Positions 45,085 to 56,550 of a stretch of DNA of 64,000 bases are shown in pieces. The notes below the pieces were generated by a model, which had not been told where the DNA came from, did no database searches, and saw nothing but the letters and a program-made list of their open reading frames with translations. The position numbers were made by a program, and so were the translations under genes. The stretch is taken from contig NC_003552.1 of assembly GCF_000007345.1 (NCBI RefSeq), positions 1,736,001-1,800,000 on the forward strand, given 5' to 3'. The DNA is from Methanosarcina acetivorans C2A (GTDB lineage Archaea > Halobacteriota > Methanosarcinia > Methanosarcinales > Methanosarcinaceae). Position 1 is the stretch's first letter; every line of letters starts with the position of its first letter.

Positions 45085-45537
45085 TGTTCTTTTTTAGTGT
45101 TTTTGAGTGGTTATCTATATCTCTGTAAATTATTTTTTTCATAAATACTCTTTTGTAGTTATATACGCACATACAAGAATCCATTTTTTTCTTATTTAAT
45201 TTACATATTTCATCTTGTATATCATATTTTATCATATATTTGTAAAAAAAGGAAATGTTTATCTATATATACAGCTCCCAAACATTAAATAGTATTTTAC
45301 ATATTATATACATATTTTTTATATGTCTACTGTTGGTACAATTCTTGAAAGTAATAAAGTGTGAAGGCGAGGCTGAAAGGGAAATTTGCTTTCATAATTT
45401 GAGGACTTGAATTTGAATGATAAAAATTGGAATGGTTAGTCTAATTTTTTTCGCAAAAAAATCTGGTAGGGTTTCTGATAAAATACTGAATGTGTTCTGT
45501 ATACTTGATCTGTTGAAAATAAGGGGTGTATAGTTTG
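45085..45537. other. AT-rich intergenic region upstream of the large protease gene
   Basis: No gene seen. TATA-like stretches (for example TTATATACATATTTTTTATATG around 45303) make it a likely promoter. AAGGGGTG at 45521-45528 is the ribosome-binding site of the following gene. Confidence 0.5.
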
Positions 45538-48500
45538 ATGAGAATAAATCGAGGAATAATTTGTTTACCTTTACTTGCTGTTTTTTTGGTGATGATTACA
45601 GGGACGTCAATAGCTGACGATGTAAATGTGGAGTTTGTCAGTCACCTTGGTAGAGATGTTTCTAATGTTGCAGTCTCCGGGGATTATGCATATATAGGAC
45701 AGGGAAATGAGCTTGTTATACTGGACATTAGTGACGCATCCAATCTATCAAATCTATCAGAAATGGGAAGAGTGACTACTCCATCAGTGATAAATGATAT
45801 TACTGTAAAAGAAAATTATGTATACGTAGCCGATGATAGCAGTGGTCTTGTTATTGTTGACATAAGTGCCCCAACATCACCAACACTTGAAGGAAATTAT
45901 GATACTGGTTATGCATATGGTGTTTCAGTTTCCGGCAATTGTGCCTACGTAGCCGATCTTCACGATGGTCTTGTTATTGTTGACGTAAGTACCTCAACAT
46001 CACCAACCCTCGCAGGCATGGGCAGTTATAATAGTGGTGATGCATGGGATGTTGCTGTATCAGGCAAATATGCTTATGTTGCTTTTGGAGCTGGTCTTGT
46101 TATTGTTGACATAAGTGCCCCAACATCACCAACCCTCGTAGGCAGTTATGATACTGGTTATGCATATAGTGTTTCAGTCTCCGACAATTATGCCTACATA
46201 ACCGATTATACTACTGGCCTTTTTATTGTTGATGTCAGCACTCCGACATCACCAACCCGCGTAGGCAGTTACGATACTGAAGATATTGATGGAAATACAA
46301 GGGGCGTCGCAGTCTCCGGCAATTACGCTTACGTAGTCGATGGTGATAAAGGTCTTGTTATCGTTGATATCAGCAATCCAACATCACCAACCCTTGCAAG
46401 TAGTTATGATACTGATGGAAATGCAAAGGGCATTGCAGTCAGTGGCAATTATATATACGTAGCCGATGGTGATAATGGTCTTGTGATTTTGAGAACTGAT
46501 ATCCAAGATCAAGGACTAATAGATGGATCTTTAGTCCAGGTAGAAGGCAGCTCAGATGTATATCTTATTAAAAACGGCATGAAACATCTTTTTACTTCTC
46601 CTGAAGCTCTCTTATGGAATGAACACAGTTTTGACAATATAATATCCGTTACAAGCGAAATCCTCCAGAATTACCCTGATGGAGAAGACATCAGCATTAG
46701 TCAACCTATAATTGACAAATATCACGCGCTTGGCGGTGAACCTATTTTTGGAGCACCATCAGGAGAGGGGGAAAAGGTTGGGGATCAAGACAGTGCCGGA
46801 ACATACTGTTCCTATGTTAATTTTGAAAATGGTGCCATTGAGTGTTTCAAGAATGGAGACCACACTGGAGAAGCCTATGCGATATTTAATCCCCTTTACA
46901 CGAAATGGGCTTCACTGGGATATGGCAAGAGTGTTCTTGGCTACCCTATAGATAATATGTCTGAAGTTCAGAATTCGAAATTTGAGACGCCGTTTAGATA
47001 TCAGAATTTTGCAAATGGAACTGAGAACGGGTCTCTTGAATATAATATCACTTCAGGGAATGTATTTGAGATTCATGGAGCTATTTTTGCAAAATGGGGT
47101 TCCATTGGTTATGCTGATAGTGTATTGGGGCTTGTAACAACTGATGAATATGAGGCGGCACCATCACCATTTGGGACTGTTGGAAGATACAGCAAATTCG
47201 AAAATGGAACAATTCATTGGATCAGTGATAAGGAAGGCGAAAATGAGGAACATCCCTATAGAGGGGAAGCATTTGTCACATCAGGGTATTTAAATGAGGT
47301 TCATACTAACCTGGGAGGGACTTCAAGTGATCTGGGTTTCCCGATAACTGACCAGAGAGAAAAAGATGGTCACGACTACTGCGTGTTTGAAGGCGGGATT
47401 ATTGATTGGAACGATTCTACGGGAACTTACGATGTAAAATTGGGTTATGAAGGTTTACTTTTCAGAGCAAAAGACGGCATAGATGTTTACCTCATCGAAA
47501 ATGGAGAGAAACGCTATTTCACATCCCCCGAAGCCCTTGAGTGGAACGGACGAAGTTTCGATGAAGTAATTAATGTTTCAAGTAAGACATTAGATTCTAT
47601 TCCATCAGGACCCAACATCAGCATTTCCCAGGAAATAATTGACAAATATTATGCACTTAAAGGCTCCACAACATTCGGACAGCCAGATGGTAAAGGAGAA
47701 TTGAATGGTGAACAGGATCAAGATGGAAATTACTGTTCCTACGTCAATTTCGAAAATGGCTCAATAGAATGTTTCAAGAATGGTCCACATGTGGGAGAGG
47801 CATATGCAGTTCTTAATCCGTTGTTTACAAAATGGAGGGAACTGGGGTATGGAGCAGGTATTCTTGGTTATCCGATAGGCGATATGTCTGAGATTAGGAC
47901 TTCAAGTAAGAATACAGATTACCGTTATCAACTCTTTGCAAATGGAACTGAGAACGGGTCTCTTGAATATAATATCACTTCAGGGAATGTATTTGAGATT
48001 CATGGCGCTATTTTTGCAAAATGGGGTTCCATTGGTTATGCTGATAGTGTATTGGGGCTTGTAACAAGCGATGAAAGGGATGCTGTACCTTCCTTCAAAG
48101 GCACAACCGGTAGAGTAAGCGATTTTGAAAATGGTCACCTCCACTGGCATGGTAGTGGAGATCATTATATGAACACTAATATGACCTATGGCGAACTGGA
48201 TCAGCTCTATACGGAAATAGGAGGAACTGCGAGCGAGTTAGGATTCCCGATAACGGATCAAAAGGAAATCGACGAAAATGGACATTGCTATTGCGAATTT
48301 GAAAACGGAAACATCGGATGGAATGAAGCAGAAGGAAAGTACAAAGCTTATCTGACAAGTGAAATTTACATAGAACTTTACTTTGACAGAACTTATTTTG
48401 ATACAGTAAACCATATGGAGCAGACTCAAAGCCATGCATCAGAATTTGAGGCTGGAGACACATTAAAAGGATATGTAAATACTAATATGATTATAGATGA

Positions 48501-51500
48501 CCACACCGTCAACACCTATGTAAAAATGATAATGCCAGATGGAACTGAAAAATATGCATACCGTGTTGACCCATTCCTACCCGACAACCCCCTATATTTC
48601 TCTGACGAAAAGCAACCTCTCACAGAAGATCCCTGGTACGCAGAAACGAATACCTGGAACTGGGATATCTATAAAATGACGGGTACAGAGCCCGAAGGGA
48701 CATACACGTGGGAATTCTGGTATGAAGATGTAAATACTGGAGAAGTTCTGGGAAAAAGTACGGCGAGTTATAACTTTTCAAAGATGACTGATCTGGGAGA
48801 GTTTGATGAAAGGTGCAAATACTATGTAAGGGTCTCAAATATCGATGACCTAGGAGAAATCTGGGTAAATGGTCATTATATCAAAAATGCCACGTACTAT
48901 GGAGATAGTGGATGGGTTGATATTCACGAACCAAGAGGAGATAATTTCATCGAGTTTAAAGTTACCAATGCAGGGGGAGATTGGACTTACAAATTTGAAT
49001 TAATGCAAAATGATTCAATAAGTGAAACAATTTTATGGAGTGATTCTTGCGGTGTGGTTGGAGAAACGGGCAATGGATGTAATAAGAATACAGATACAGG
49101 AGAGGTATATGATAAAGTTATAAGGTTTAAAAATACAGCGCCTGTTAATGTAAATGTGATGTATGCCTATAATGAGAGCGAAGGCGATATAGAAAAATTT
49201 GATGGATACTTTGAAGGTATCACCGATTACTACAACGAGAATTCATATGGTACTATATCCCTTAATTTCCAAGTAGCAGATAATGGCAACTGGTTTCAAG
49301 TTCCTCATGATATTCAATGGTACAATGACAACCATGTAAGGCATGAGATCTCTGATGGTTTACATAATTTCTCATATAATAATTCAGCCTATGAATTTGC
49401 AAAGGATGTCATAGACGGCCTAGATGAAAATGTTGACTATTCTGATTTTGATATTAATCTGATTATTTATGCACCAAGTTACACATGGAAATGGATTGAT
49501 TCACCGGATTCTCCATTGGGGATAGAATATAAACATGTACCAGTTTATTTAGGTTCAGCCCAAGCAATTCCGATTGATTCTGTGACATCAAATAATGATG
49601 GAAGTTTTGATTGCGCAGAAAATTGGATCGTTTTTCCAATCAGTTCTGACTATGATGAAGAGGTTCTTGCCCATGAGATAGGGCATCAAATGGGTTCATT
49701 ACATCATTTAATCAATCAGGATCTATACCCTAGTTCTGGGGGAGGCTCAAATGTTAGTAATTGGGATGTAATGCACGATAACTATGCTTGTATGAGTTCA
49801 TTTAGTAAAGTTAATTCTGGTTGGTTAAATTTTAAAGAAGAAACTGAATTCAAAGATTATGAGATATATCCACTTGATAGTTTACATTTTGGAGATGAGG
49901 TAATCAAGTTTAAACCAAATGAATATTCTGACGACTTTTACATTTTTGAGTATAGAAGGGCAATTGGGCATGATAGTATTTTAAATAACGATCAAAATCG
50001 AGTTAATGAAGATAATCCAAATGGGGTTATTGTGATATATACAGCTACTAATGGCAGTACCTTGCACACAACTACTAACTCGTTGACAGGTAAAAATGAA
50101 ACTGACACTTATACAGTTCATGTCTTAAATAGCAATCTTGAAAACAATTGGAATGAACCTACATTTTACAACGAAGTCAGCTCAATAGAGGATTTGTTTT
50201 ATTCTTATGATAAAGAAGAAATAGACATAGTCTTAAAATTTATCAATTTTAGTGTCGTTGACGTTCCTGATGGAAACAGTGCCAAAATAAACGTGCAATT
50301 AGAGAACGAAATAGGGTTAAAAGGTGTAATTTTACAAATGACAAACACGATATTTTATAATTTGCTCTTCCCGTATCCATTAAATTATACCGTCAACCCA
50401 ACTTTGTCATTGCATGCCTATACAGACGATGGAAATCATGTAGGAATGAATTATGAAACTGGAGAATATGAAGTTCAGATTCCTGGAGCTAGAACTTCTG
50501 GACTTCAACCAAATGAGCGTGAATGGATAATTGTTCCTGAAGATGTTAATGTTAAATATGTGGTAGACAGCTATGCAAATGCTAAATATATGTATCAAAA
50601 TCCAGATCTTACGGGGGACTTTATCGATTCCTATGACCTCATTGGATTTTATTTTGATGAAAATGGGAATGATTACTCAGGAAAAGTAACTGAGCATATT
50701 GCTCCAGGGACACAAAATGAACATTCAGTCGTATATAGCCAAAATCTCGATGGAACATACAGTATTGAAGTCTCTAAACAATACGATGTTTCTTTACTAC
50801 CTCCACTTACAAACGCAGATACTTTAAGTTTCATAAAAGGGGATATCTTACCCATCAAATTTACAGCTAGAAACCCCGATACCGGCGATTTAGTTTTTGA
50901 TGACCAAGTTAATGTGTTAATCAAAAATTCTACGGGAACAGTTATTGAGAGTTTCAACACCACTAGTGGTGTCCAAGTAAATTCGGATGAAGGGTACTAT
51001 ACTGTTGATTTCTACACAGCGGATCATCCTGAATTAATTATTGGCGAAAAATATTCTGTTCTAGTCACCTTTGGAGACATTAATGGTGGGACGGGATCTG
51101 GAATTGCTTACTTTATTCTTACTGGCAGCAATTCACCTTCCAGCATCACCAATCTCCAATCCACCAATGGCACAACTTGGATCAATTGGACCTGGACCAA
51201 TCCCACAGACCCCGATTTCAACCGCACTGAAATCTACCTAAACAACATCTTCCAGACCAACACCTCCACCGAATTCTTCAACGCCACCTGCCTAGAACCC
51301 GAAACAGAATACACGATCGGTACGCACACGGTGGATACCTACGGAAATGTGAATGAGACATGGGTCAACCTGACTGCAACAACCAAAAATGCACCTATAA
51401 TTGTTGAAGCCGGCCCTGGTCAGACTGTTAAGAAAGGAACAACCGTGAACTTTGAAGGAAACTTTACGGCTTCCGGTTTACATACCTACTCGTTCCACTG

Positions 51501-51873
51501 GGACTTTGGTGATGGAACCAATACTACCGGTTCTTTGACTCCTTCTCATGTTTATGAGGATGCTGGAGCCTATGAAGTTACTTTAACAGTCACTGGTGAG
51601 AATGGTGATACAGGGAATGATACTCTTAATATCACCGTTACTAATGCTTCAGTATCTGTTTTCCCTGGTTACACCAATCCACCGACAGACCCAGATAAGG
51701 ATGGTCTCTACGAGGATATCAATGGAAACGGGAGACTGGGTTTCAATGATCTGGTGGCATACTTCGCTAACCTGGACTGGATAGAAGAAAATGTGCCGCT
51801 TGAGTTCTTTGATTATAACAAAAACGGGTTGATTGATTTTGATGATGTTGTAACTCTGTTTGATATGCTTTAA
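45538..51873 (+). CDS. Giant secreted mosaic protein: LVIVD propeller, LGFP repeats, metzincin-like protease, FN3, PKD, dockerin-like
   Basis: This protein has about 2111 residues. The ATG at 45538 follows GGGGTG; GTG or TTG codons just upstream are in frame. Numbering below is approximate. The signal peptide (1-27, ending GTSIA) precedes LVIVD repeats (about 28-320, e.g. GLVIVDISAPTSPTLVGSYD), which form a beta-propeller. Two tandem units of about 310 residues follow with FTSPEA..W and LGFP-type motifs (WGSIGYADSVLG). A zinc protease site, HEIGHQMGSLH (His near 1379, 1383, 1389), with downstream DVMHDNYACMSS as a possible Met-turn, matches the metzincin pattern. Then come an Ig-like region, FN3 (about 1870-1960), PKD (FHWDFGDGTNTT) and a C-terminal domain with two Ca-binding loops (DPDKDGLYEDINGNG, DYNKNGLIDFDD). 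Substrate unknown; cell-surface location inferred. Confidence 0.9.
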   Translation: MRINRGIICLPLLAVFLVMITGTSIADDVNVEFVSHLGRDVSNVAVSGDYAYIGQGNELVILDISDASNLSNLSEMGRVTTPSVINDITVKENYVYVADDSSGLVIVDISAPTSPTLEGNYDTGYAYGVSVSGNCAYVADLHDGLVIVDVSTSTSPTLAGMGSYNSGDAWDVAVSGKYAYVAFGAGLVIVDISAPTSPTLVGSYDTGYAYSVSVSDNYAYITDYTTGLFIVDVSTPTSPTRVGSYDTEDIDGNTRGVAVSGNYAYVVDGDKGLVIVDISNPTSPTLASSYDTDGNAKGIAVSGNYIYVADGDNGLVILRTDIQDQGLIDGSLVQVEGSSDVYLIKNGMKHLFTSPEALLWNEHSFDNIISVTSEILQNYPDGEDISISQPIIDKYHALGGEPIFGAPSGEGEKVGDQDSAGTYCSYVNFENGAIECFKNGDHTGEAYAIFNPLYTKWASLGYGKSVLGYPIDNMSEVQNSKFETPFRYQNFANGTENGSLEYNITSGNVFEIHGAIFAKWGSIGYADSVLGLVTTDEYEAAPSPFGTVGRYSKFENGTIHWISDKEGENEEHPYRGEAFVTSGYLNEVHTNLGGTSSDLGFPITDQREKDGHDYCVFEGGIIDWNDSTGTYDVKLGYEGLLFRAKDGIDVYLIENGEKRYFTSPEALEWNGRSFDEVINVSSKTLDSIPSGPNISISQEIIDKYYALKGSTTFGQPDGKGELNGEQDQDGNYCSYVNFENGSIECFKNGPHVGEAYAVLNPLFTKWRELGYGAGILGYPIGDMSEIRTSSKNTDYRYQLFANGTENGSLEYNITSGNVFEIHGAIFAKWGSIGYADSVLGLVTSDERDAVPSFKGTTGRVSDFENGHLHWHGSGDHYMNTNMTYGELDQLYTEIGGTASELGFPITDQKEIDENGHCYCEFENGNIGWNEAEGKYKAYLTSEIYIELYFDRTYFDTVNHMEQTQSHASEFEAGDTLKGYVNTNMIIDDHTVNTYVKMIMPDGTEKYAYRVDPFLPDNPLYFSDEKQPLTEDPWYAETNTWNWDIYKMTGTEPEGTYTWEFWYEDVNTGEVLGKSTASYNFSKMTDLGEFDERCKYYVRVSNIDDLGEIWVNGHYIKNATYYGDSGWVDIHEPRGDNFIEFKVTNAGGDWTYKFELMQNDSISETILWSDSCGVVGETGNGCNKNTDTGEVYDKVIRFKNTAPVNVNVMYAYNESEGDIEKFDGYFEGITDYYNENSYGTISLNFQVADNGNWFQVPHDIQWYNDNHVRHEISDGLHNFSYNNSAYEFAKDVIDGLDENVDYSDFDINLIIYAPSYTWKWIDSPDSPLGIEYKHVPVYLGSAQAIPIDSVTSNNDGSFDCAENWIVFPISSDYDEEVLAHEIGHQMGSLHHLINQDLYPSSGGGSNVSNWDVMHDNYACMSSFSKVNSGWLNFKEETEFKDYEIYPLDSLHFGDEVIKFKPNEYSDDFYIFEYRRAIGHDSILNNDQNRVNEDNPNGVIVIYTATNGSTLHTTTNSLTGKNETDTYTVHVLNSNLENNWNEPTFYNEVSSIEDLFYSYDKEEIDIVLKFINFSVVDVPDGNSAKINVQLENEIGLKGVILQMTNTIFYNLLFPYPLNYTVNPTLSLHAYTDDGNHVGMNYETGEYEVQIPGARTSGLQPNEREWIIVPEDVNVKYVVDSYANAKYMYQNPDLTGDFIDSYDLIGFYFDENGNDYSGKVTEHIAPGTQNEHSVVYSQNLDGTYSIEVSKQYDVSLLPPLTNADTLSFIKGDILPIKFTARNPDTGDLVFDDQVNVLIKNSTGTVIESFNTTSGVQVNSDEGYYTVDFYTADHPELIIGEKYSVLVTFGDINGGTGSGIAYFILTGSNSPSSITNLQSTNGTTWINWTWTNPTDPDFNRTEIYLNNIFQTNTSTEFFNATCLEPETEYTIGTHTVDTYGNVNETWVNLTATTKNAPIIVEAGPGQTVKKGTTVNFEGNFTASGLHTYSFHWDFGDGTNTTGSLTPSHVYEDAGAYEVTLTVTGENGDTGNDTLNITVTNASVSVFPGYTNPPTDPDKDGLYEDINGNGRLGFNDLVAYFANLDWIEENVPLEFFDYNKNGLIDFDDVVTLFDML

Positions 51874-51895
51874 GGGATAAAAAATATGAATAAGT

Positions 51896-52012
51896 TAGGA
51901 CTTACGCAGTTGAGCTGAAAACCACAAGCGGAAAAGACTTAATTGTATAAATCAGAAAAATGTTGACGACTCCGCATTTGTTTGATATTACATTTCAAGT
52001 GCGTAAGTCCTA
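51896..52012. mobile_element. 117-bp MITE with terminal inverted repeats and 5-bp target duplication
   Basis: The ends TAGGACTTACGCAGTTGA (51896-51913) and, reversed, TAGGACTTACGCACTTGA (51995-52012) match in 17 of 18 positions. Direct TAAGT repeats flank it (51891-51895 and 52013-52017), a typical target-site duplication. The interior has no coding capacity. It must have been moved by a transposase encoded elsewhere. It lies 22 bp after the large protease gene, at the start of a decayed gene. Confidence 0.85.
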
Positions 52013-52514
52013 TAAGTTTTATCGAGTTTGGATCGTCCAGTGGTCGTTCCTTCTTCAGTAGGCTACTATTCCCTGTCGGTTAATACAAACGATGCCTGGA
52101 AATGTTGTAGAAACAGTACCCTACCATGTAAACAGCAAGAATATCGATGAAACGCTTAAGGTTCAGATCAGCGTAAGTGAAATTCCTGAAGGAGAAGATG
52201 ATGCCGCCGGAATCAATGCATCCGGTGCGCTCCTGAATGGCACTGTTTTGGCATTTACGGACCTGAAGTACAAATTCGTTACCAATGAAAGCGAATACCT
52301 TCAGGACTTTGATGGAGACCAGATCCTTGCGAGAATGCTCAAGTTTGACAGGGAAAAAGTTGAAGCCGTCCTTGAAGTAGGAGAAGTTACAGTTACTCTA
52401 ACGAGTAAAGTGGAGTATAATAATGGAATTTTTTCAGACATGGCAAGTTTAGAAGGGAGCGATGTAATAGCGGTGATTGAAAAGGACAGTAAAAAAGATA
52501 AAACGAGCAAGTAA
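52013..52514 (+). pseudogene. 3' remnant of a surface protein gene (frameshifted)
   Basis: Two reading frames join to one protein-like sequence. The first, about 52021-52100, reads LDRPVVVPSSVGYYSLSVN then TNDAW. The second, 52092-52514, reads GNVVETVPYHVNSKNIDETL and ends KKDKTSK. The join suggests loss of two bases (W-GN) near 52100. The remaining 140-residue frame has acidic, beta-rich sequence typical of C-terminal parts of Methanosarcina cell-surface proteins, but no signal peptide. The MITE sits at its truncated 5' side. A functional short protein from the ATG at 52092 is possible but unlikely. Confidence 0.6.
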
Positions 52515-52597: not shown

Positions 52598-52749
52598 TCA
52601 ATTTTTTAAGTAGTATCAAAAACATAAGCTTGCAGTCAAATTCATAATTATCCTACCAGTCTGTTTAATAGACGAAAAAAGGTTATACCTGAAAGGAAGA
52701 TAAATGGATATAAAGTAGATCCAAGGGAATTTCTGAAAAAGGTGATTAT

Positions 52750-52923
52750 GTGACCGTTGCGCATGAACAATACGTGGTTAATGAAAATGGGGAAAGAGTG
52801 GCTATTATTCTTCCTATAGAGGAATATGAAAAAATGAAAGAGGATCTCCACGATCTGGCTATCGTTGCAGAAAGACGTAACGAGAAAACTATTAGTTTTG
52901 AAGAGATGAAAAGAATATTATAA
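52750..52923 (+). CDS. Short Phd/RelB-type antitoxin, no toxin next to it
   Basis: This 57-residue protein reads MTVAHEQYVVNENGERVAII at its start and has the typical antitoxin stretch LPIEEYEKMKEDLHDLAIVAER. It starts with GTG, with AGGTG 5 nt before it. Antitoxins of this family normally precede a RelE/ParE toxin gene, but the stop here is followed only by a convergent gene. The frame just upstream also looks protein-like (GYKVDPREFLKKV) and may be the end of a decayed gene. It could be an orphan antitoxin acting against a toxin made elsewhere. Confidence 0.7.
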   Translation: MTVAHEQYVVNENGERVAIILPIEEYEKMKEDLHDLAIVAERRNEKTISFEEMKRIL

Positions 52924-52950: not shown

Positions 52951-53391
52951 TCAATATCTCTCTCTGATTCTTTTCAGCAACTTCCTGTTCAAAAAATCTT
53001 CATGATATTTCCGGTCCAAGTATCTGGACATTACTTGCTGTTCCACATCCAGTTTCAGGTCTTCGTTTCTAACAAATAACGGCACATTGGGTCTTATGAC
53101 TTCAAAATTAATAACAGGTGAAGCATCATTCATCACAAGAAGGTCTACATGATCGGTCTGAAGGAAAGATGAAAGTTCTCCCATGAGTTCCAGGCGCTTT
53201 TCTATCCGTTCTCCTTTTGTAAGTTTACCGGAAAGGTACACAGCTATATCAATATCACTCAACGGCCCTTCTGTGCCTTCGGCTGTCGAACCGAAGAGGT
53301 ATGCAAGTTCTACATATTCCCGTGACTTAAAAAATTCCGGAAGCAGCTTACACAGAAACTCTTTCTTTACCTTTTTCGTTTGAAGACCCAT
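52951..53391 (-). CDS. MNT-type minimal nucleotidyltransferase
   Basis: This 146-residue protein has the nucleotidyltransferase motif GSTAEGTEGPLSDIDIAV (Gly34-Ser35, Asp46, Asp48) and a third carboxylate in HVDLLVM. It is the MNT (MNT-domain) partner type of HEPN toxin systems, which AMPylates and silences its HEPN partner. I start at the ATG at 53391 (MGLQTKKVKKEF); the frame extends 24 codons further without support. No HEPN gene is adjacent on either side, so it appears to be solitary. An isolated DNA polymerase-beta-like nucleotidyltransferase is the alternative name for the same family. Confidence 0.82.
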   Translation of the reverse strand: MGLQTKKVKKEFLCKLLPEFFKSREYVELAYLFGSTAEGTEGPLSDIDIAVYLSGKLTKGERIEKRLELMGELSSFLQTDHVDLLVMNDASPVINFEVIRPNVPLFVRNEDLKLDVEQQVMSRYLDRKYHEDFLNRKLLKRIRERY

Positions 53392-53941
53392 TGTATTTTC
53401 TCTATGTCCTGTTCTTTCAAATATGCTATGTTGTAAAAAGGAGCAGATTGAGATGAAATACACTCACAGTAACATTGGGTAAAGCTGCATTTTGCGGCTT
53501 TATTTTTTTTCCTTAGTTTAGGTGGATTCTGCTTACTGATTTTATTTATTGATTTGTTTTCGAGCCTTTCTGTCTTCTGCTTTATGTGGTTGAAGTTTTC
53601 CAACTAACTGCCCAATGCAACTACTTCTTAGTTTTCACTCCTCAAACAGATCTATTCTCAGCCCGCTCAAGCGTGGGACAAAAGATTGAGAAACGGATTA
53701 AGATTATTCGTGTGAGAATATCTCGTAAATTTAACTTTCTTTCTAAAGAGATTACATAACCATTCAATTTAGTCAAGATATTTCTTCAACATCTTAACAA
53801 AAATAAAACTGTTATATCCAAGTTTCGCTTTTTAACTATTGGAATAATTTATGACAGTAGTTCAGATATTTTTCTATATGTATTGAACAGGCAAATTGAG
53901 ATATGGAAAGGCTATCGAAGAAAACAGAACAGGAGATAGGC
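53392..53941. other. Intergenic region between MNT gene and papain-like protease gene
   Basis: I see no gene. It contains the divergent promoters of the MNT gene (minus) and the protease gene (plus). Frames on the minus strand near 53400-53600 have no ribosome-binding site and atypical composition. Confidence 0.45.
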
Positions 53942-55657
53942 ATGAAGAATAAAATCAACACAAAAAACAGAGTAAACATGAAGAAGAAAACATTTGTTTT
54001 CAGTGGACTCTTGCTTCTATTTATGATAATGGGTTCATCGATATCAATGGCAGTCGCGGGATCTTCAGGGAAGACCAGGGCAACAGAGCCCGTACTTTCA
54101 CCGGAAAACCCGGACTTTACCGAATACCATGCAGACAAAGTTTACACCCAATCTTTAGCTTCTTCGAACAGGCATAAAAAAGGCTTTGTACCCGCACCGG
54201 TGGATCTTAGTGATCTCAGCAAAATTTCCACACTCGAGATTTCCGCACCAGCTTACTATGACCTGCGTACCCTGAACAGAGTTACATCTGTAAAATACCA
54301 GGGGGAATCAGGGGCTTGCTGGACATTTGCAACCAGTGGGTCTCTGGAATCATATTTAATGCCTGAAGAAAACCGGGACTTTTCTGAAAATAATATGAAA
54401 AACCTTCTTTCTTCCGCATACCCGGAGGGTTTCGACCGTGATCCAAATGATGGAGGAAATTCACTCATGTCAACTGCCTATCTGGCCCACTGGAGCGGAC
54501 CCGTGGAAGAAACAGCTGATCCTTACTCCATCTATAGCAGGGTATCCCCTGAGAACTTACCTGTACAGAAACATGTACAGGATGTACTTTTTATTCCCAA
54601 CAGAGAGAGTTCTCTGGATAATACCATGATAAAATCTGCTATCCTGCAGTACGGAGCCCTATCTACCTCAATGTACTTTGATGATTCCAGTTATTATTCT
54701 TCCAGATACGGCTATTACTATAATGGGTCTTCAATCTCTAACCACGCTGTATCCATTGTGGGCTGGGATGACAATTATGATAAAAACAACTTTTCCGGCG
54801 TTCCGCCCGGAAATGGGGCATTTATCGTAAAAAATAGCTGGGGTACATACTGGGGTGATAATGGATATTTCTATGTTTCCTATTATGACTCAAACATAGG
54901 AAATGATAATGCAGTCTTTACGGCTGAAAACACTGATAACTATGAAAATATTTATCAGTACGACCCCCTCGGATGGGTCCTGAACGTGGGCTACAACAAC
55001 CCTACTGCCTGGTGTGCAAACATCTTTGCTGCAAAATCTGATGAAACCCTCGAATCCGTCAGTTTCTATACAACGGACTCAAACTGTGCTTATGAAATCT
55101 ATATTTATACTAGTCCTGAATCCGGTCCTCTAAGCCGGGAAGGCCCGGTTCTTTCAAAGAGCGGGACAATTCCAGTTGCAGGCTATCACACAGTCCCTCT
55201 GGATTCCGAAATTCAGCTTGAAGCCGATCAAAAATTCTCCGTAGTCTTGAAGCTTACGACACCTGACTCCAGATATCCGATTGCCATAGAAATGCCTTAC
55301 GCAGACTGGAGTAGTAAAGCAACAGCAAATCCAGGAGAGAGTTTTATCAGTGGTGACGGAAGTACCTGGAAAGATATAACTGCATATTACTTGAATACAA
55401 ATGTATGCATTAAGGCCTTTACAGATTCAGGAACTTTAAGTGTGTTCCCTGGCTACATAAATCCACCAACAGATCTGGATCAGGACGGCCTCTATGAGGA
55501 TGTCAATGGAAACGGAATACTGGATTTCGATGATGTGGTGGCATACTATGATAACATGGGATGGATAGAAGAAAATGCTCTTGTTGCTTTCTTTGATTTT
55601 AGCAACAACGGGTTAATCGACTTTGATGATGTTGTAAAGCTTTATGATAGGCTTTAA
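53942..55657 (+). CDS. Secreted papain-family cysteine protease with dockerin-like tail
   Basis: This 571-residue protein starts at the ATG at 53942, which follows GGAGAT; the frame opens 13 codons earlier. The signal segment is FVFSGLLLLFMIMGSSISMAVAG. The C1A protease domain has Gln120 and Cys126 in QGESGACWTFA, His268 in NHAVSIVGW and Asn298 in KNSWGTYWG, so the catalytic set is complete. A domain of about 135 residues (about 315-450) resembles the lectin-like domain found after archaeal C1 proteases. The last 65 residues, SVFPGYINPPTD to the end, carry two Ca-binding loops and match the tail of the giant protease 5 kb upstream. Extracellular peptide degradation or surface-protein processing is inferred. 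Confidence 0.92.
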   Translation: MKNKINTKNRVNMKKKTFVFSGLLLLFMIMGSSISMAVAGSSGKTRATEPVLSPENPDFTEYHADKVYTQSLASSNRHKKGFVPAPVDLSDLSKISTLEISAPAYYDLRTLNRVTSVKYQGESGACWTFATSGSLESYLMPEENRDFSENNMKNLLSSAYPEGFDRDPNDGGNSLMSTAYLAHWSGPVEETADPYSIYSRVSPENLPVQKHVQDVLFIPNRESSLDNTMIKSAILQYGALSTSMYFDDSSYYSSRYGYYYNGSSISNHAVSIVGWDDNYDKNNFSGVPPGNGAFIVKNSWGTYWGDNGYFYVSYYDSNIGNDNAVFTAENTDNYENIYQYDPLGWVLNVGYNNPTAWCANIFAAKSDETLESVSFYTTDSNCAYEIYIYTSPESGPLSREGPVLSKSGTIPVAGYHTVPLDSEIQLEADQKFSVVLKLTTPDSRYPIAIEMPYADWSSKATANPGESFISGDGSTWKDITAYYLNTNVCIKAFTDSGTLSVFPGYINPPTDLDQDGLYEDVNGNGILDFDDVVAYYDNMGWIEENALVAFFDFSNNGLIDFDDVVKLYDRL

Positions 55658-55918
55658 GGGGATAGAAAACAGGAACAAGCTGCTTAGAGTTTTAATCCTT
55701 CTTTGGTCCTTTCATGAGCAGGGATACCATAGAGTTGATTTTATGATCTGGAGATCTCAAAAGGGATCGTAAAAGGATTGTAAAAAATGTATATATTTGC
55801 ACAAGGAGTCTGAGAGCAAAGCGGACTTATATCCCGACATATAGTGTTTTATCCAGATTTTTACTGGTTGAAGGGAGACTGAAAATTCTTAAATACGCAT
55901 ACATACACAGATAATACT

Positions 55919-56152
55919 ATGCCAACAAGAACAATCAGCATAAGCGAAGAGGCCTACGAGAAGCTCAAAAGCCTCAAAAGCTCGGAAAAAGACAGCTTCT
56001 CTGATGTGATTCTCAGGTACTACCCCAAAAAAAGAAAGCTCTCTGAAGTGCTCGCAGAAATAGGTCCGAATCCCGAACTTGCTGATGCAATCGAAAAAGT
56101 GTCAGGAGAAATGAGAGCGGAAAAAATGAGGGAGATTGATCCGGAGAGTTGA
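55919..56152 (+). CDS. vapB: VapB-type antitoxin (DUF217 family)
   Basis: This 77-residue protein begins [20 protein letters not shown] and has a ribbon-helix-helix-like N-terminus, then [21 protein letters not shown] and an acidic C-terminus. It is the usual partner of archaeal PIN-domain toxins and binds both the toxin and its own promoter. Its stop overlaps the possible TTG start of the toxin gene, so the two are translationally coupled. A TATA-like region and AT-rich sequence precede it. Confidence 0.88.
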
Positions 56153-56157
56153 TCGAA

Positions 56158-56550
56158 ATGCCGGTGCTTGACACCTCTTTTATTGTGGCCCTCTTAAGGG
56201 GAGAGCCGGAAGCCCATCAAAAACTGGCTGAAATGGAAGCTGAAGAAGTTCCCTTAAGCACGACCGAAATTAATGTCCTTGAACTGTACCGGGGAGCTTA
56301 TCTGTTCAGAAAAAAGTATCAAAATCTGGAAGAAATCAAGAAGCTTCTGGAATGTTTTCAGGTTCTGGAGCTTGAAGAACCGGTCTATGAAATCTTTGCT
56401 TCCCTTTCGGCTCGGTTACTTTCGGAAGGCAAGCCGATTGGGGCTTTTGATGAACTGATAGCAGCAATTACGCTGCTTCAGGAAGAGCAGATAGTTACGA
56501 GAGATGAGCATTTCAAAAGAGTTCCAGGGCTTGAAGTAATCACCTATTGA
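56158..56550 (+). CDS. vapC: VapC-type PIN-domain ribonuclease toxin
   Basis: This 130-residue PIN domain begins MPVLDTSFIVALLRGEPEA; the first Asp in LDTS and later acidic residues (Glu in EINVLELYRG, Asp in GAFDELIAA, Asp in TRDEHF) form the metal site. It is expected to cut specific tRNA or rRNA unless bound by VapB. I start at the ATG at 56158; a TTG at 56149 overlapping the vapB stop is also possible. The operon order, antitoxin first, is standard. All four catalytic carboxylates appear present, so the toxin should be active. Confidence 0.9.
   Translation: MPVLDTSFIVALLRGEPEAHQKLAEMEAEEVPLSTTEINVLELYRGAYLFRKKYQNLEEIKKLLECFQVLELEEPVYEIFASLSARLLSEGKPIGAFDELIAAITLLQEEQIVTRDEHFKRVPGLEVITY

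Follow-up and report, generated by a model that had tools for sequence, protein, structure and literature searches.

A 117-bp non-coding mini-transposon of Methanosarcina acetivorans shares its ends with ISAba11-like IS elements

A short intergenic repeat at positions 51896-52012 of the window, the 64,000-nucleotide stretch of Methanosarcina acetivorans C2A (contig NC_003552.1) analysed here, raises the question of whether it is a mobile element and, if so, which transposase moved it. Direct reading of the sequence confirmed the non-autonomous transposon proposed in an initial annotation. The element is 117 bp long, its terminal inverted repeats match at 17 of 18 positions with the sole mismatch at position 14, and copies of the target site TAAGT flank it at 51891-51895 and 52013-52017. 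The left end (51896-51913, + strand) reads TAGGACTTACGCAGTTGA; it is of the GTTGA type and resembles the right end of a 1139-bp IS described below. The right end (51995-52012, − strand) reads TAGGACTTACGCACTTGA in reverse complement and is of the CTTGA type. The family orientation of this MITE is on the − strand, with the IS-left-like end CACTTGAAATG at 52012, and the exact 13-mer TAGGACTTACGCA occurs at only two places in the window, both of them MITE ends. This copy taken alone fits equally well a 7-bp duplication, ATAAGTT (51890-51896 and 52012-52018), around a 115-bp element. The duplication length is set at 5 bp because the other copies of the family settle it: among 100 gathered copies, 50 have a duplication of exactly 5 bp, 5 have one of 6 bp and 1 has one of 7 bp. 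All reading frames within the element are short, in agreement with the earlier statement that it has no coding capacity.

The MITE lies between two genes and therefore interrupts nothing. Upstream, an uninterrupted 2115-codon ORF of surface type (45526-51873, + strand), with PKD-like and dockerin-like C-terminal repeats recognised by eye, stops 22 bp before the element. Downstream, a 140-codon ORF (52092-52514, + strand) starts 79 bp after it. This ORF gave no Pfam or NCBIfam match at E 0.01, and its relative in another genome (G009) is 581 aa or more in length, which identifies it as the C-terminal remainder of a larger surface-type gene. The annotation had placed the MITE at the 5′ edge of a decaying surface-protein gene; the decayed stump is there, but the position of the MITE is intergenic. 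Two other features of the neighbourhood were observed. A dockerin-like C-terminal segment is 81% identical between the 2115-codon ORF (51700-51895) and a 584-codon papain-like ORF (about 55484-55679), and the same segment is repeated many times in this genome and in the genus. Small ORFs near the MITE resemble, by eye, an antitoxin, a nucleotidyltransferase and a PIN protein (52740-52923, 52951-53463 on the − strand, and 56149-56550).

The annotation had held that a lack of further copies, together with a lack of any empty site in relatives, would favour a chance inverted repeat over a transposon. A BLASTN search of the M. acetivorans genome (5,751,492 bp) found 9 more matches to the MITE, of which 7 are near full length, at 92, 90, 82, 81, 72, 71 and 69% identity, and 2 are partial. 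The exact 13-mer occurs 19 times in this genome and 50 times when up to one mismatch is allowed, compared with 4 occurrences of a reversed control pattern. Relatives of the MITE are present in 28 of 30 Methanosarcina genomes. The 100 gathered copies (110-122 bp, ends within 3 mismatches) were taken among the best matches and in selected genomes and are thus a non-random set. The exact 5-bp duplication is found in half of them and is absent from the other half, whereas 1000 shufflings of the right flanks gave 1.2 on average and never more than 5; within M. acetivorans itself the count is 8 of 16. The annotation had also called the transposition recent. The intact duplication agrees with this description, but the nearest copy is 92% identical, and “recent” appears overstated.

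To look for empty sites, the joined flanks of 98 copies were compared with all fetched loci, which gave 13 junction-spanning matches, and five comparisons were aligned. One is a clean empty site: the genome G022 carries the insert between two copies of ATTTA, and the corresponding position in G007 is unoccupied and shows ATTTA once. Another comparison, between a copy in G011 and the M. acetivorans genome, agrees with an empty site but is more diverged, and the other three are not clear empty sites. Thus, the expectation of empty sites in relatives was borne out for other copies of the family but not for the copy in the window, for which none of the 30 genus genomes, among the matches listed, keeps both flanks side by side. 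Overall, the short length, the terminal repeats, the lack of coding capacity, the dispersed copies with duplications and the empty site of G007 relative to the G022 copy are those of a MITE, and the sequence comparisons indicate that it is a real, non-coding mini-transposon spread across the genus Methanosarcina.

One genome departs from this pattern. In G023 (MAG JASGVX; L091, L150-L168 and L201-L211), 31 MITE copies, most of them very similar, were examined, and 16 have no target duplication, compared with 5 of 36 in other genomes. Counting duplications that have no more than one mismatch or that extend further, the figures are 15 of 31 in G023 and 31 of 36 elsewhere (Fisher p 0.0014; the copies had been fetched for other purposes and are non-random). 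A recombination test for exchanged 5-mers among the G023 copies gave 2 cross matches, against a chance mean of 0.62 and a 95th percentile of 2. Ectopic recombination is a possible cause of the missing duplications, as are misassembly and strain mixing, since G023 is a MAG.

If the MITE is non-autonomous, a full-length element with the same ends should exist in the genome, as the annotation had proposed. Such an element is present: a 1139-bp IS with MITE-type ends lies at C1:3365003-3366141. However, its transposase gene is split over three reading frames, the pieces of which match NF049921 (IS701_2) in order, and no recognisable duplication flanks this copy. No intact transposase of the NF049921 type was found in the M. 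acetivorans genome, where the other NF049921-like or DNA matches are fragments. Because the IS survives here as one frame-broken copy and fragments, the MITE is probably stranded.

Intact copies of the IS were found in relatives. Ten copies were fetched from G002, which a plasmid record in common identifies as Methanosarcina barkeri MS, and copies with open frames came from G029, G027, G022 and G021; in G010 and G023 the open frame of the IS is shorter, and G019 contains a diverged relative. The 18 two-ended copies inspected in Methanosarcina are 1138-1339 bp long and have the same ends; 15 of them are flanked by an exact 5-bp duplication, 2 by a 6-bp duplication and 1 by none, and at a nineteenth locus (L185) the left end is unrecognisable. 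The similarity to the MITE extends slightly beyond the tips. In the copy in the window, the CTTGA-type end agrees with the left end of the 1139-bp IS for 22 bp from the tip, up to and including CTTGAAATG. The corresponding end of the MITE family consensus, with CTTGAAATG, is identical at 22 of 22 positions to the start of the IS in M. acetivorans, G021 and G022 and agrees at 20 of 22 positions with that of M. barkeri MS. At the other end, 16 of 17 bases are shared with the right end of the IS. The M. barkeri MS element (NZ_CP009527, L397) has the ends and the 5-bp duplication of the MITE, but it encodes an intact transposase and its interior is unrelated. Beyond about 22 bp, the interior of the MITE showed no match to the IS interiors, and hence an origin by simple internal deletion of a known IS is unsupported.

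To which family does the partner IS belong? ISAba11, an IS701-like element of Acinetobacter that was found by its transposase alone (L393, NZ_CP151698), has exactly the same 13-bp ends on both sides, a 5-bp duplication (CATAT) and a comparable length (1101 bp against 1139 bp). Its transposase scores 394 bits against NF049921, that of M. barkeri MS scores 398 bits, and both pass the cut-off of 250. The partner IS accordingly has the profile match, the ends and the duplication of the ISAba11-like branch. On the other hand, the transposases of ISAba11 and M. barkeri MS are only 34% identical, and in the alignment ISAba11 reads H-x2-H-x3-E-x6-K where the Methanosarcina transposase reads A-x2-S-x3-E-x6-K. 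We take this motif to be the HHEK signature, a name that comes from a paper title in a reference list, and its spacing is our own reading. Histidines occupy both positions in ISAba11, in a Moraxella element and in two Nostoc elements, whereas the Methanosarcina protein has A and S there; for this reason we call the IS “ISAba11-like” and not a strict ISAba11 member. The DD, D-x-W and E-x6-K columns, which contain the DDE residues, are kept in an alignment of 13 transposases, two of which start late and do not include the N-terminal residues. The classical IS701 duplication is 4 bp, in contrast to the 5 bp seen for both the MITE and the partner IS. A closer relative by transposase is ISMesi2 of Allomeiothermus silvanus (L398, annotated as IS701-like), whose protein is 58% identical to that of M. 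barkeri and whose in-register ends are TAGGAGTTACGCA and TAGGACTTACGCA; it differs in being bacterial and in its length of 1094 bp as called (1092 bp in register). MITEAba12 (PMC6382973) is a MITE described from Acinetobacter, the genus that also bears ISAba11.

Elements were also chosen without regard to their ends. Nineteen plasmid-borne elements were selected for the similarity of their transposase or IS: the M. barkeri IS and, hand-picked for spread, 10 from a list of 359 records and 8 from a list of 399. In 13 of the 19, a de novo search for inverted repeats gave two ends that each differ from the 13-mer at no more than 2 positions. For ISMesi2 the call was off by one base; in register, by eye, its mismatches number 1 and 0, which brings the total to 14 of 19. 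Five elements fall outside this limit: two from Piscirickettsia (4/3 and 5/5 mismatches), one from Isosphaeraceae (4/5), a Synechocystis fragment and one from Hymenobacter (10/9 as called, or about 3/3 by eye once in register). Pairwise identity among the 13 transposases with an annotated CDS ranges from 22 to 81%, with a median of 32%.

The same end also bounds many short elements outside Methanosarcina. When 84,980 species genomes were searched for pairs of exact 13-mers separated by 76-106 bases, at least 116 stretches were obtained. Among the matches listed, there are at least 118 elements (115 distinct) of 102-132 bp that are bounded by the 13-mer, have unrelated interiors and come from about ten phylum-level groups; an exact 5-bp duplication flanks 64 of these 118, compared with 0.9 in shuffles. 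The hosts among these matches belong to Pseudomonadota, Desulfobacteraceae, Poribacteria, Cyanobacteria, Chloroflexi, Bacteroidota, Pyrinomonadaceae, Myxococcota, Parcubacteria and Euryarchaeota (Methanosarcina, Methanothrix and Methanospirillum). Most are MAGs, and the isolates include Undibacterium, Nostoc, Anabaena, Psychrobacter and Hymenobacter. The interiors of the 115 distinct elements form 44 clusters at 65%, an approximate number of families, as shuffled interiors just reach this threshold (largest 0.652). Beyond position 13 the profile of the listed elements is nearly flat (0.37 bits at most). Since the set was chosen by its ends, it reflects the spread of the 13-mer and not its conservation. 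In 40 genomes chosen for such exact-end MITEs, an NF049921 match was found in 28 and exceeded the cut-off in 10. Nine of the 17 loci inspected in these genomes (L357-L365) are IS of 1055-1157 bp with the transposase match inside and ends at most one mismatch from the 13-mer; L385 is a further IS with ends TAGG/CAGG, and the other 7 (L366-L371 and L386) are incomplete or decayed, or lack ends of this kind.

From what can be read directly, namely the ends, the duplication, the copies, the empty site in a relative, the ends common to intact IS of relatives and the broken IS here, we infer that the MITE was mobilised in trans by an IS701_2-type transposase. The element is very probably a MITE of the ISAba11-like branch of the IS701 family, moved by the DDE transposase of the 1139-bp IS with 5-bp staggered joining. 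This transposase would bind the 13-bp tips, and a few further bases, of any DNA that bears them, would excise or copy that DNA and would join it to a new site through 5-bp staggered cuts, leaving the 5-bp duplication. A passenger of about 117 bp would have spread through Methanosarcina in this way. With the transposase genes found in M. acetivorans broken, the copies in this genome are probably immobile now, barring the re-entry of a functional relative.

The MITE might instead have been moved by a transposase of another family whose elements have these ends by coincidence. The unrelated interior, the fact that no intact NF049921 transposase was found in the M. acetivorans genome and the 12 of 40 bacterial genomes with such MITEs that gave no NF049921 match would all agree with this explanation, although the last may reflect incomplete MAGs. 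We consider it very unlikely, as all 18 NF049921 IS with two ends that were examined in Methanosarcina bear these ends, 15 with the 5-bp duplication, the match to the left end of the IS extends to 22 bp, and the ends of ISAba11 are identical. It is less credible still that the feature is a chance inverted repeat or a stand-alone hairpin, such as a terminator or an RNA gene. The strand of the MITE does fold strongly as RNA (z = −5.6), and two inner blocks, AAAATCAAG (0.91) and TTATACAGT (0.88), are conserved above the inner mean of 0.74. However, the dispersed copies, the 5-bp duplications and the empty site refute a hairpin as the main account. A structured RNA is likewise unsupported: RNAalifold gave no consensus pairs in 50 diverse copies, the best Rfam match reached 19.5 bits against a gathering score of 135, and 32 of 500 shuffles had at least as many double-change pairs as the 15 observed (shuffled mean 12.0). 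None of 500 shuffles equalled the covariation score (0.128 against 0.106), but related sequences can give such a score without structure.

The conserved inner blocks may serve as additional sites for binding or as a TATA-like promoter. In the latter case the MITE would double as a mobile promoter or insulator, with the conserved TTTATACA block as an outward-facing archaeal TATA box. The block TTATACAGT, one of the two best conserved in the 50 diverse copies, does resemble the archaeal TATA box consensus. This resemblance is one of motif alone, and in the window the promoter would drive transcription of the − strand, in antisense orientation to the upstream ORF, which makes such a role improbable. 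As a separate observation, columns 62-72 of the MITE alignment (A1) keep TTTATACAGTT across the 50 diverse copies, archaeal-TATA-like and facing outwards.

Returning to the MITE as a passenger of ISAba11-like transposases, the wider interest lies in a 13-bp tip that is near-identical while the transposases share about one third of their residues and the hosts span two domains. It is conceivable, if rather doubtful, that ISAba11-like transposases of Bacteria and Archaea alike recognise TAGGACTTACGCA as a near-universal key. Any such enzyme that arrived, even across domains, could then move MITEs with unrelated interiors, and orphaned MITEs like this one would be dormant passengers, revived when a distant transposase is acquired horizontally. 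Were end recognition interchangeable in this sense, non-autonomous elements would not depend on a transposase from their own lineage, and mobilisation across domains would be directly testable. As a kind, the MITE is ordinary; as a named family it is new as far as the searched literature goes. The available portions of the literature on Methanosarcina MITEs, IS701 and ISAba11 (including PMC7326120, PMC4549789, PMC2246112, PMC10359306, PMC4853749, PMC10969869 and PMC3542288) yielded no description of the MITE or of the shared end, and literature matches to the end string were unrelated by title. The shared end may well be on record already, with Rieck et al. 2012 as the likeliest source.

Some variants of the ends were also observed. 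A one-base variant, TAGAACTTACGCA, occurs at six places in the M. acetivorans genome (for example C1:1894623 and 5446906); one copy in this genome lies about 120 bp from an IS701_2 remnant, and an intact Moraxella IS has TAGAACTTACGCA at both ends. In M. acetivorans, at about C1:2150396-2150447 (L048), two MITE-type right ends are arranged in tandem, 39 bp apart, and the left end is unrecognisable. In G023 (C49, positions 315-1653; L186), the left 39 bp of a 1339-bp IS are tandemly repeated, giving two stacked left ends within a single TCTTC duplication.
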